Of a DNA stretch of 64,000 nt, positions 51,613-55,459 are shown one piece after another. A model generated the notes under the pieces. It did not search any database. It had not been told where the DNA came from and worked only from the letters and a program-made list of their open reading frames with translations. Position numbers and translations under genes: made by a program. Source of the stretch: Actinospica robiniae DSM 44927 (GTDB lineage Bacteria > Actinomycetota > Actinomycetes > Streptomycetales > Catenulisporaceae); contig NZ_KI632511.1 of the NCBI RefSeq assembly GCF_000504285.1, forward strand, positions 6,368,154 through 6,432,153. Direction: 5' to 3'. Positions within the stretch are counted from its first letter, which is position 1. Each line of letters opens with the position of its first letter.

Positions 51613-52635
51613 GTGAGCGTGCAGGTGGCGACCGAACGCGCGGGCAGCCTGCCCTGGGGCCTCGTCACCAGTGACCCCGGCCTGGTGGCCCGGGCGCGCA
51701 CGGGCCTCGCCGAGGTGGAGGAACTGCTGCTGCGCTGCGCGCACAGCGACCACGCGCTGATCCGGGAGTCCGCCGTCCACCTGGTCGAGGCCGGCGGCAA
51801 GCGGTTCCGTCCGCTGCTGACGGTCGTGGCCGCCGAGTTCGGCGAGCCCTCGGTGCCGCAGGTGGCCGTGGCCGGCTGCGTGGTGGAGCTGACCCACCTG
51901 GCCACGCTCTACCACGACGACGTGATGGACGAGGCCACCATGCGCCGGGGCGTGCCGACCGCGAACGCCCGCTGGGACAATACGATCGCGATCCTCACCG
52001 GCGACTACCTGTTCGCCAAGGCCTCGATGCTGCTGGCCGATCTGGGCCCGGAGGCGGTGCGGCTGCAGGCCGCCACCTTCGAGCGGCTGGTGACCGGCCA
52101 GATCAACGAGTGCATCGAGCCGGGCCCGGACGAGAGCGCGATCGACCACTACCTGAAGGTGCTCGAGGACAAGACCGGCTCGCTGATCGCGACCTCCCTG
52201 CGCTTCGGCGCGCTGCTCTCCGGCGCGTCCCCGACCGTGGTCGAGCAGCTGACCCGCTTCGGCGAGACCTTCGGCGTGGCGTTCCAGCTCGTCGACGACA
52301 TCATCGACATCGCCGGCGAAGCCGAGCAGTCCGGCAAGCTCCCCGGCACCGACCTGCGCGAGGGCGTCCCCACCCTCCCCACGCTCTACGCCCTGGCCTC
52401 CACCGACCCGGAGTCGGCCCGCCTGCGCGAGCTGCTGTCCGCCCCGATCGAAGAGGACGAACTCGTCCTCGAAGCCCTCGACCGCCTCCGCGCCCATGCC
52501 GCGATGGACCAGGCCCGCGTTACCGCCCGCCGGTACGCCGAAGAAGCCCGCACCATGCTCGAGGGCCTCCCTGACATCCCGGCCCGCGACGCCCTGCACG
52601 CCCTCTGCGAGCTGGTCTACTCCCGCACGGTGTGA
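51613..52635 (+). CDS. Polyprenyl diphosphate synthase
   Basis: The 340-aa trans-prenyltransferase has the first Asp-rich motif in LYHDDVMDEATMRRG and the second in FQLVDDIIDIAGE, plus GGKRFRPLL. A small residue pattern before the first motif (THLATLYHDD) agrees with a long-chain product, but chain length cannot be read with certainty. It probably makes the tail used by MqnP; such a gene follows nuoN in Streptomyces. GTG at 51613 is the start. CCCGATCGGG lies just upstream. Confidence 0.9.
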   Translation: MSVQVATERAGSLPWGLVTSDPGLVARARTGLAEVEELLLRCAHSDHALIRESAVHLVEAGGKRFRPLLTVVAAEFGEPSVPQVAVAGCVVELTHLATLYHDDVMDEATMRRGVPTANARWDNTIAILTGDYLFAKASMLLADLGPEAVRLQAATFERLVTGQINECIEPGPDESAIDHYLKVLEDKTGSLIATSLRFGALLSGASPTVVEQLTRFGETFGVAFQLVDDIIDIAGEAEQSGKLPGTDLREGVPTLPTLYALASTDPESARLRELLSAPIEEDELVLEALDRLRAHAAMDQARVTARRYAEEARTMLEGLPDIPARDALHALCELVYSRTV

Positions 52636-52660
52636 CGGGCGCGGGGCCGGGAGATCGAGA

Positions 52661-52930
52661 TCAGTCCCTGAATACGTGCTCGGCTTTCGTGGCATGGACG
52701 GCACGGATGTACCAGATCTCGAGGCTCGTTTCGTTGGTGCAGTTCCGGATGCGCTCGAACTGCGCGGAGTCGAGGGAGATACGCCGCATTTCCAGCTTTT
52801 CCAGCAGGAGATCGGCCAAGCCCTTGGCTCTTGCGGTGGCTAGATTAGCCTCGATGATCGAGTTGAAGATGCCCCGGTAGAACCACGGCACCGCACTGTC
52901 GTCGGGGTAGGCGCCCGGGCCCTGCGGCAT
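52661..52930 (-). CDS. Short protein resembling the C-terminus of the upstream Rpn-type nuclease
   Basis: The 89-aa product has no nuclease core. Its residues from about 28 onward (ARAKGLADLLLEKLEMRRIS, then FERIRNCTNE, RAVHATKAEHVF) align with the last 60 or so residues of the preceding gene (AEAKGMAKLLLKSLDLRGIV, then RERIATCTDE, RAVTATTAEDVF). Its ATG overlaps the stop of that gene (TGATG), so the two are translationally coupled. It may be a decayed partial duplication or a small partner that binds the nuclease. Published work on E. coli Rpn proteins describes small C-terminal products that inhibit the nuclease. Confidence 0.7.
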   Translation of the reverse strand: MPQGPGAYPDDSAVPWFYRGIFNSIIEANLATARAKGLADLLLEKLEMRRISLDSAQFERIRNCTNETSLEIWYIRAVHATKAEHVFRD

Positions 52931-53826
52931 CAGAGGTCTCCGGAGCGGTCGTTGAAGACGTCCTCGGCGGTGGTGGCGGTGACCGCGCGGGCGAACCACT
53001 CCTCGATGAGCTGCTCGTCCGTGCACGTCGCGATGCGCTCGCGCTGCTCGTCGCTGATGACGATGCCCCGCAGGTCCAGGCTCTTCAGCAAGAGCTTGGC
53101 CATGCCCTTGGCCTCGGCCTTCGCCTTGGCTTCGTCGAGCATGCCCTGGATCATGGGGCCGTAGACGACGTGACTGTTCGCTGCCATCAGTTGCCTCCAG
53201 AAGTCTCCGACGTCGGTCCTGCCCAGCGTGAGGTCGATGTTGTTCGCGACGGCGACAGCCGTGGGTTCGGGTGCGGTCCCGACGGCCTTCGCCGCCGCTT
53301 TGAGTATGGCATTGATGTGGCGTGAACCGAGGTGGACCGTCACGGAAAGCGCGGTGTAGTAGAGGTCCATAGCGGCGGCGTGGTCGTCGATGATCATCTC
53401 GACATTGCTGGGGCCGAGCACGATCGGGCGAACGTACAACGAGTCGCCCAGTCCGTGGCCGAAATCGAAGCCCTTGCGCGCCCATTCTTCGCACCGCTTG
53501 CTGCTGGTGACGACAACGAGCGTGACCGGGAGGCTGTAGCGGTTGGCCAGGGTCATCCCGTAGTAGCCCCAGGCCCTCGGCTTGTCGTGATCCGTCTGCA
53601 GTTGGGTTTCGAAGGCGAAGATGCCTTCCCTCCCATCTGCTGTGCGGAATTTGAACACGCGGTCGACGCGGCGCTCGACCGGTTCGACGGTGCTGAGATC
53701 AGTGCCGAGGCGCTCGATCTCCTCGAATTTCGAGAAATGCACACCGCAGCGTTCGAGTGCTCGGACAATGAGATCCGGATCATCGTCGAAAAGGGTGTGG
53801 CTGACCTCATGGTGATTGGTGACCAT
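52930..53826 (-). CDS. Rpn-family (PD-(D/E)XK nuclease-like) protein
   Basis: The 298-aa protein resembles actinobacterial Rpn-type proteins. Residues 1-65 include MVTNHHEVSHTLFDDDPDLI and RRVDRVFKF. The nuclease-like core at about 50-115 has D-x(n)-E-x-Q (VDRVFKF, FAFETQLQ), followed by KPRAWGYYGMTLANRYSLPV. A helical C-terminus (from about 225) has the EAKAKAEAKG coiled stretch. Related E. coli proteins promote recombination-type damage and act in phage defence. It seems to have less GC-rich codon use than its neighbours, consistent with transfer. Confidence 0.8.
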   Translation of the reverse strand: MVTNHHEVSHTLFDDDPDLIVRALERCGVHFSKFEEIERLGTDLSTVEPVERRVDRVFKFRTADGREGIFAFETQLQTDHDKPRAWGYYGMTLANRYSLPVTLVVVTSSKRCEEWARKGFDFGHGLGDSLYVRPIVLGPSNVEMIIDDHAAAMDLYYTALSVTVHLGSRHINAILKAAAKAVGTAPEPTAVAVANNIDLTLGRTDVGDFWRQLMAANSHVVYGPMIQGMLDEAKAKAEAKGMAKLLLKSLDLRGIVISDEQRERIATCTDEQLIEEWFARAVTATTAEDVFNDRSGDL

Positions 53827-53860
53827 GCGGTCACCCTAAGCTCTGTACAGAGGATTATCG
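53818..53860 (-). promoter_or_regulatory. Promoter and palindromic operators of the Rpn-type gene
   Basis: On the minus strand, GATAAT (53859-53854) is a good -10 element. The perfect 12-base palindrome CTCTGTACAGAG (53841-53852) follows at the expected transcription start. GGTGACC-N4-GGTCACC (53818-53835) covers the start codon. Such an arrangement suits repression by a protein at the promoter and possibly a start-codon hairpin. Confidence 0.5.
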
Positions 53861-53992
53861 CCCGAATCCCGCGCGACCACCGTTTCGAGTGACGAGCGGG
53901 GTCGCTCGTACGAGGGTACGGCGACGTAGTGGGACATGCTTGGTGTCCGAAACCCGCCAGATCGTGTCGGTGGGCAGGCGCATGATGGAGGC

Positions 53993-55459
53993 ATGGCTTC
54001 TACGACTCCGCTGACGGACGAGCACCGCTACCAGGCGGTGCGCGGGCGCGACCCCCGGTTCGACGGGGTGTTCTTCACGGCTGTGACCAGCACCGGGATC
54101 TACTGCCGGCCGAGTTGCCCGGCGACCACGCCGAAGCGCGAGAACGTGCGGTTCTACGCTTCGGCGGCGGGGGCGCAGGCGGCCGGGTTCCGAGCCTGCC
54201 GGCGCTGCCGGCCGGACGCGGTGCCGGGGTCGGCCGAGTGGAACGTGCGTGCGGACGTCGTCGGGCGGGCGATGCGGCTGATCAACGACGGGGTGATCGA
54301 CCGCGAGGGCGTGGGCGGGCTGGCCGGGCAGTTGGGTTACAGCGAACGGCAGGTGCAGCGGCACTTGGTCGCCTCGCTGGGTGCCGGGCCGCTCGCGCTG
54401 GCTCGCGCGCAGCGCGCGCACACGGCGCGGGTGCTGCTGCAGACCACGCCGCTGGCGGCCGCGGACGTCGCGTTCGCCGCCGGGTTCTCCAGCATCCGGC
54501 AGTTCAACGACACGATCCGCGAGGTATACGCGGCCACGCCCACCTCGTTACGCGACGCCGTCGCCACGGCGACAGCGAAGCGCGGGACGTCGGCCGGCAC
54601 CGGGATCCCGCTGCGCTTGGCGTACCGCGAGCCGTATGCGCGCGGGCACGTCTTCGACTTCCTCGGCGCTCGTGCCATCCCCGGAATCGAGGAGATCCTG
54701 GGACCGCCGGGAGACCGGGTCTATCGGCGAACCCTGCGGTTCGAGCACGGGCCCGGCATCATCGAGGTGCACGAGCGGGTCACCGGCGGCGCCTGGCTGG
54801 AGTGCCGGCTCGATCTGGCCGACCTGCGCGGCTTCACCGCCGCGATCGGCCGGGTGCGGCGGCTGTTCGACCTCGACGCGGATCCGGTGGCGGTGGCCGA
54901 GACCTTCGCCCCGGACCAGATCCTCGGCCCGCTGACGCTGAAGAACCCGGGCATCCGCTCGGTCGGCGCGGCCGAGCCGCAGGAGATGGCGATCCGCGCG
55001 GTGCTCGGCCAGCAGATCACCGTCGGCTCGGCCCGCGCGCTCGCGGGCAAGCTGGTCGCCGCCCGCGGCGAGCCGCTGGAGAATCCGAGCGGCGGGCTGA
55101 CGCACCTGTTCCCGCTCGCGGCCGACCTGGCCGAGGCGGACTTCGCCGAGCTCGGCATGCCGGCCTCGCGCAAGGAGACGCTGCGCACGGTGAGCCGGGC
55201 GCTGGCCGACGGCAGCCTGCGGCTCGACGCCGGGGCCGACCGGGAACAGGCCCAGCGGGAACTGCTGGCGCTGCGCGGGATCGGGCCGTGGACGGCGGGC
55301 TACCTGCGGATGCGGGCACTGAGCGACCCGGACGTGCTGCTGCCCGGCGACGTGGTCATCAAGGGGGCGCTGAAGCGTGCCGGATTAGGCCGCGAGGAGA
55401 CAGAGCGCTGGCACCCCTGGTCTTCGTATGCGATCCACTACCTTTGGAGCAACTCATGA
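53993..55459 (+). CDS. Ada-type regulator/AlkA DNA-3-methyladenine glycosylase fusion
   Basis: The 488-aa protein has three parts. The Ada methyl-phosphotriester zinc domain (about 10-80) has FTAVTSTGIYCRPSCPATTP and FRACRRCRPD, giving the four Cys. An AraC helix-turn-helix follows at about 90-190. AlkA N-terminal and HhH-GPD glycosylase regions (about 205-485) end with LRGIGPWTAGYLRMRAL and catalytic Asp in LLPGDVVIKGA. It senses methylated DNA and removes alkylated bases. The Ogt activity is a separate next gene, overlapped by ATGA. ATG 53993 is preferred to an upstream start. Confidence 0.92.
   Translation: MASTTPLTDEHRYQAVRGRDPRFDGVFFTAVTSTGIYCRPSCPATTPKRENVRFYASAAGAQAAGFRACRRCRPDAVPGSAEWNVRADVVGRAMRLINDGVIDREGVGGLAGQLGYSERQVQRHLVASLGAGPLALARAQRAHTARVLLQTTPLAAADVAFAAGFSSIRQFNDTIREVYAATPTSLRDAVATATAKRGTSAGTGIPLRLAYREPYARGHVFDFLGARAIPGIEEILGPPGDRVYRRTLRFEHGPGIIEVHERVTGGAWLECRLDLADLRGFTAAIGRVRRLFDLDADPVAVAETFAPDQILGPLTLKNPGIRSVGAAEPQEMAIRAVLGQQITVGSARALAGKLVAARGEPLENPSGGLTHLFPLAADLAEADFAELGMPASRKETLRTVSRALADGSLRLDAGADREQAQRELLALRGIGPWTAGYLRMRALSDPDVLLPGDVVIKGALKRAGLGREETERWHPWSSYAIHYLWSNS

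Follow-up and report, generated by a model that had tools for sequence, protein, structure and literature searches.

Among the described systems closest to the locus reported here, the Rpn proteins of E. coli, internal starts are supported by experiments, and rpnS copies that arose independently and stand as separate genes downstream have already been described (PMC10327210). In RpnC, inhibition is reported to be lost when one or the other partner gains one repeat and to return when both do (Zhong et al., PMC10327210). Residues D63, E82 and Q84 of RpnA have been probed by mutation (PMC5350276). In the open-licence literature on RpnL and RpnS, PMC10327210 was found, and none of the matches listed concerned the actinobacterial family considered below.

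A related arrangement occurs in the window, the whole 64,000-nt stretch of Actinospica robiniae DSM 44927 DNA analysed here, where the locus is read, with moderate probability, as a divergent actinobacterial Rpn toxin-antitoxin cassette comprising RpnL, an internal RpnS and a second RpnS. Three products would be made: RpnL, a nuclease of 298 aa; RpnS, of 85 aa, from codon 214 of the same gene; and the second RpnS, of 89 aa, from a coupled gene. Either small protein would use its long first helix to pair with the corresponding helix of RpnL, thereby keeping the nuclease silent, with the second gene raising the inhibitor supply or uncoupling that supply from RpnL synthesis. We infer that the cassette is expressed, that its products bind one another, that RpnL is toxic and inhibited by its partners, and that the system may act in phage defence. 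Because the internal start is kept in the long gene, the separate small gene would add to the intragenic inhibitor, not replace it; the preliminary description had presented the separate gene as a 'different genetic solution', a view at odds with the retained internal start and deprived of its novelty by the copies already described in E. coli (PMC10327210).

The rpnL-like gene (52930..53826, minus strand; 298 aa) encodes a PD-(D/E)XK core at about residues 1-160, a helical middle and a helical C-terminal part. An in-frame ATG at codon 214 opens a predicted gene-within-gene, rpnS (52930..53187, minus strand; 85 aa), with an internal Shine-Dalgarno GGAGG (53194..53198, minus strand) that lies 6 nt 5' of the ATG at 53187 and uses the Arg codon AGG. 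The separate small gene, the second rpnS (52661..52930, minus strand; 89 aa), is a diverged copy of the C-terminal/RpnS part: its residues 18-89 align with residues 222-293 of the 298-aa protein ungapped over 72 aa, with 32/72 identical (44%; E 8e-18 for this one pairwise comparison), and the two small forms of the window, internal RpnS and 89-aa copy, have the same length over the aligned residues. The junction reads TGATG, the stop TGA (52932-52930) and the start ATG (52930-52928) having one base in common, and a GGAG within the final codons of that gene's long neighbour (52938..52941, minus strand), 7 nt 5' of the small gene ATG, is a possible ribosome site. Earlier observations that the 89-aa gene starts on the stop of the long gene and matches its C-terminal end are borne out by this layout, and the view of a coupled small gene derived from the C-terminal part gains further support from the alignment and from the full-then-small order of pairs elsewhere. 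Programmed frameshifting at the junction was set aside, since a TGATG preceded by GGAG is compatible with re-initiation.

Both genes and their upstream region lie within one 1306-nt segment (52638..53943), situated between polyprenyl-synthase-like and Ada-like genes, in place of which a genome of the same genus, with flanks 86-88% identical, has 63 nt. The GC content of the two genes is 63.0 and 61.4%, compared with 70.4% for the window and about 70-76% for neighbouring stretches. Because the segment is replaced by 63 nt in the same-genus relative and its genes are lower in GC, the cassette, both genes included, is probably a horizontal arrival; loss of the cassette in that relative, instead of gain here, could also account for the difference in content. 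Upstream of the long gene, 14 nt 5' of its ATG, a 12-bp perfect palindrome, CTCTGTACAGAG (53841..53852), has 2 occurrences in the 9.9-Mb genome, that is, one other place, and carries weak statistical support. With loops of up to 4 allowed, the best hairpin was equalled in 14/300 shuffles, and no sigma-70-like promoter was found within 52500-54050, findings that detract from the earlier proposal of a palindromic promoter region exerting tight control; as an operator the palindrome was rejected, its support in the shuffle test not going beyond about 5%.

Rpn homology of the long protein is established by profile-profile comparison (hhalign) against E. coli RpnA/B/C/E and six actinobacterial Rpn proteins, which aligned 281 columns at a probability of 98.1 and an E of 8e-14, the value for one single comparison, and brought the catalytic residues of the window family and Rpn into register, D55/E73/Q75 corresponding to D63/E82/Q84 of E. 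coli RpnA (PMC5350276). With D55, E73 and Q75 all present, the nuclease residues of the 298-aa protein are intact, and the refuting case named in the preliminary description, a long protein lacking an intact core, does not hold. In the 62-member alignment E73, Q75 and W277 are invariant, and D55, H6, K82, W86 and Y89 are conserved in at least 90%. The predicted structure (pLDDT 91) places a PD-(D/E)XK core in residues 1-160, with EndoMS/NucS as top fold match (Z 9.0, rmsd 2.8, 101 residues) and restriction enzymes and other PD-(D/E)XK nucleases below it; a Z of 9 is just moderately over the level that the fold-search tool terms common, and a Foldseek search of the long model against the PDB returned a best E of 0.012. 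The Rpn-type nuclease of the preliminary description is upheld by the full-length profile match and the PD-(D/E)XK model, and the 298-aa protein is, on sequence and model, a divergent Rpn relative not filed under curated Rpn models, with predicted nuclease activity.

Neither of the window's two proteins had a significant match in Pfam, NCBIfam or PADLOC, the sole NCBIfam row standing at E 0.15, and neither matched TIGR01784 or PF14261/DUF4351, the curated cut-off not being reached. Weak matches within the family were obtained for TIGR01784 in 4/62 members (best 4e-4) and for DUF4351 in 2/62 members (best 7e-4) and 5/54 C-terminal parts (best 5.7e-5); because unrelated-looking models score as well (FliH 6/62, best 5e-5; Yae1_N 2/62 and 5/54), these matches alone are not decisive. 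In PHROGs the 62 members yielded one match, to a family labelled 'transposase' (E 9e-4); PDB sequences searched by profile matched at chance level only, and a scan of genome contigs with the 298-aa protein gave no relative. The family is common, with 77/394 sampled genomes of the class matching at E 1e-10 or better. The label divergent Rpn now becomes available for a widespread actinobacterial family that none of the curated libraries searched matched significantly. With regard to phage defence, the absence of a PADLOC match counts neither for nor against a possible role. Phage records contained no match with the 298-aa protein or with the small copy of a related pair, L093; among plasmid records the 298-aa protein had matches in two, both actinobacterial and 2.7 and 11.9 Mb in size, and the C-terminal part of L093 had none.

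Downstream copies of the C-terminal domain recur in other actinobacteria. Among 98 loci around family members, which are best matches and no random sample, a second C-terminal domain lies within 1.5 kb in 12, the window included, and in 12/12 it is downstream on the same strand. Wider searches, limited to the best 150 rows each, gave 34 pairs in full-to-small order, none in small-to-full order and none on opposite strands, so that the resemblance exceeds what chance would give and similar pairs are found in other actinomycetes, where the preliminary description had proposed to look for them. A small neighbour accompanies 33/197 listed full-length frames, 18/105 in one search and 15/92 in the other, the second having been seeded with the small copy of L032; these pair counts are no unbiased frequency. 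The copy is thus largely missing in relatives, which the preliminary description would have taken as the mark of a pseudogene remnant, but absence alone does not make the window copy a remnant, because copies appear to arise repeatedly: their own parent is the closest relative for 29/42, which suggests that most arose independently. In L179/L182 and L180/L184, small copies from two genomes are nearest each other. Relative to the internal start, the onset of the duplicated DNA lies in the range -63 to +17 nt in 15/15 placeable pairs, and the duplication ends at the stop or at most 24 nt from it in 16/16, the check covering 16/41 pairs picked mainly for similarity, with L050 among them not placeable against the internal start. 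As judged from these boundaries, the duplicated unit is the small gene and no random 3' end. The closest-parent, dN/dS, further-loci and length comparisons left out L157, L160, L165 and L177 (tandem full-length copy or broken long gene), and the length comparison also left out L050, for which the internal-start coordinate is missing.

At the family level, the spacing between the internal start and the invariant Trp belongs to a single class modulo 4 in 62/85 cases, in agreement with published descriptions of four-residue repeats in RpnS; in the two proteins of the window no clear run of repeats is apparent. Of 40 copy-parent pairs, 33 are unequal in the length of the C-terminal part, 30 by a net multiple of four residues, and the L093 pair is identical at 76/76 positions, yet shifted in length by +8. 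The second small gene might on this evidence be no plain helper, instead serving as an antitoxin of altered specificity or as a recombination donor for repeat-number switching. This alternative is unlikely, if worth serious attention: copies that differ from their own parent by fours, even otherwise identical ones, argue for it, as do E. coli ypaA, likewise four residues longer than RpnE, and the loss of inhibition on a one-repeat mismatch in E. coli RpnC (PMC10327210), whereas the window pair is among the seven pairs with no length difference, and its copy should, by the E. coli rule, therefore be able to bind its own RpnL. A broader and decidedly tentative proposal is that the intragenic inhibitor, which would necessarily match its own toxin, has been repeatedly copied out and that the repeat number of the separate copies drifts by fours; the copies would then form a store of inhibitors of other specificity, or donor cassettes switching toxin specificity by recombination, with the window locus as a case kept in register. 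Repeat-shifted copies thereby pose a testable question, namely whether repeat number sets specificity and whether the copies are helpers, spares or immunity factors.

Returning to the cassette reading, the 89-aa copy is probably functional, an assessment drawn from its sequence features. The gene has an open frame, a coupled start and the GGAG, its GC by codon position is 57/44/83 (GC3 83%), as expected of coding sequence, and family-conserved positions are kept preferentially, at 13/16 compared with 18/55 for a 70% cut-off (p 7e-4), 11/14 compared with 20/57 at 80% (p 0.004) and 5/6 compared with 26/65 at 90% (p 0.053). In related genomes a stop lies inside 2/103 listed small-frame domain matches (stops, not frameshifts, being counted), and dN/dS is below 0.6 in 29/41 pairs, a value to which the parent's own constraint contributes. 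These features count against the doubtful alternative that the gene is a decaying 3'-end duplicate of no function, with internal RpnS alone acting. Decay would nevertheless fit the pairwise dN/dS of 0.95 between the window copy and its parent, which gives no overall sign of purifying selection, the failure to find, among the 13 other genomes of the host's taxonomic family, a relative nearer to the 89-aa protein than the parent is, and the state of some other copies, which look decayed or have no usable start (L052, L167) or appear frame-shifted (L075). The near-invariant D270 is Asn in the copy. The model of the 89-aa protein (pLDDT 82) has helices at 16-48, 55-63, 67-79 and 83-86, a long first helix followed by shorter ones; fold searches with it gave nothing above Z 3.9 and a best Foldseek E of 2.8, and 7TH0, the RpnA_S three-helix bundle with its long dimerising helix, was absent among the matches listed.

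Evidence for the internal start comes from codon choice across the family. Codon 214 of the window gene stands in the context TGGAGGCAACTG-ATG, a start missed in the preliminary description, and in 85 intact homologues the codon is ATG in 67, GTG in 11, TTG in 5 and another in 2, giving a start codon in 83/85. At 29 further loci, picked because they carry a downstream copy, a start codon is present in 29/29 and a Shine-Dalgarno core in 28/29; the internal-start signal is, in these sequences, retained even where a separate copy exists. Every Val at this position is GTG (11 + 13) and every Leu is TTG (5 + 1), compared with 40% of Val codons and 9% of Leu codons elsewhere, and the probability of GTG/TTG-only usage, ignoring relatedness, is ~3e-10 for the 85 homologues and 2e-6 for 62 non-redundant genes. 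The Shine-Dalgarno core occurs in 59/62 non-redundant genes, compared with 96/1016 other in-frame start-like codons, and synonymous resampling of the upstream codons gives a z of -10. Ranked by hybridisation energy among the start-like codons of its gene, the internal site comes first in 36/62 genes, second in 14 and lower in 12. GGAG persists though the residues encoding it vary (Trp-Arg, Leu-Glu, Trp-Glu, Met-Glu), and Arg at residue 211 has the codon AGG in 29/31, compared with 9% elsewhere. A small product is, from these nucleotide patterns, very probably encoded within the long gene, the evidence extending over 114 examined genes (85 + 29) that are related to one another. It is highly improbable that Met, Val or Leu at 214 reflects a protein constraint with no internal start, since such a constraint, which might arise because this stretch links two protein parts and could require a hydrophobic residue, and with which the 12/62 genes whose site is outside the two best ribosome-site matches would agree, is contradicted by the exclusive use of GTG and TTG, by a GGAG that stays as upstream residues change among subgroups, and by the AGG preference at Arg 211.

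Further family members illustrate a range of gene states. The host genome carries a second intact member, L002 (C1:7488488-7489348). It shares the internal start, here TGGAGGAAGATG-ATG, and no further C-terminal domain lies within 1.5 kb of it. At a third locus in this genome (L188:2334-2962; C1 about 913833-914461), approximately residues 58-142 of the nuclease core are missing and the frame changes; the C-terminal frame is intact, a W-R-T-M-M motif occupying the place of the internal start, and the locus is a possible orphan inhibitor. Elsewhere, at L170, two small C-terminal copies share one 207-aa open frame downstream of a long gene. In 13 loci examined in all, stand-alone C-terminal frames with no nuclease core in the stretch examined are found at L135, L142, L150 and L016, and nuclease-core fragments only at L146, L148, L149 and L012; the small frame can, judging by these loci, outlive the nuclease.

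Type II toxin-antitoxin pairs with overlapping genes consist of two coupled genes, for a toxin and a small partner. The window locus likewise has two coupled genes; its small partner, in contrast, duplicates a portion of the toxin. TIGR01784-type actinobacterial Rpn proteins (L119, L120, L121, L122, L124, L125) have the same domain order as the window family, and both share a His-Asp/Glu near the N-terminus, D..E-x-Q, EGR-type repeats and a similar C-terminal W-x-x-R-x-x-T-A stretch, but they form a separate sequence group, found in 3/60 class genomes at E 1e-5 compared with 77/394 at E 1e-10 for the window family. Catalytic residues occur in RpnA in the same order and at near-equal spacing to those of the window protein, with nuclease activity measured for RpnA and predicted for the window protein (Kingston et al. 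2017, PMC5350276). E. coli rpnE-ypaA and rpnC-rpnC_S resemble the window family in encoding a PD-(D/E)XK nuclease with D..E-x-Q, in an internal start at the domain boundary, in four-residue repeats and in having, downstream, a separate copy that stems from its own parent (PMC10327210). The present analysis extends this picture by showing how large the actinobacterial Rpn branch is, by supporting conservation of the internal start at the nucleotide level, by locating the boundary of the duplication and by showing that copy and parent often mismatch in steps of four residues. For ypaA, no mention of the four-residue excess over RpnE was found in the consulted portions of PMC10327210. The E. coli K-12 ypaA locus (L117:3817-4002) bears a RefSeq pseudogene label, yet its frame is open from start motif to stop. 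The same internal-start layout is present in E. coli RpnA, at M244, and in K-12 the internal ribosome site marks the beginning of the ypaA copy. E. coli Rpn and the window family differ in sequence, with 11% identity over the aligned profile columns and curated models that miss the window family, and in the copy itself, ypaA having four residues more than RpnE, whereas the window's two small forms are equal over their aligned part.
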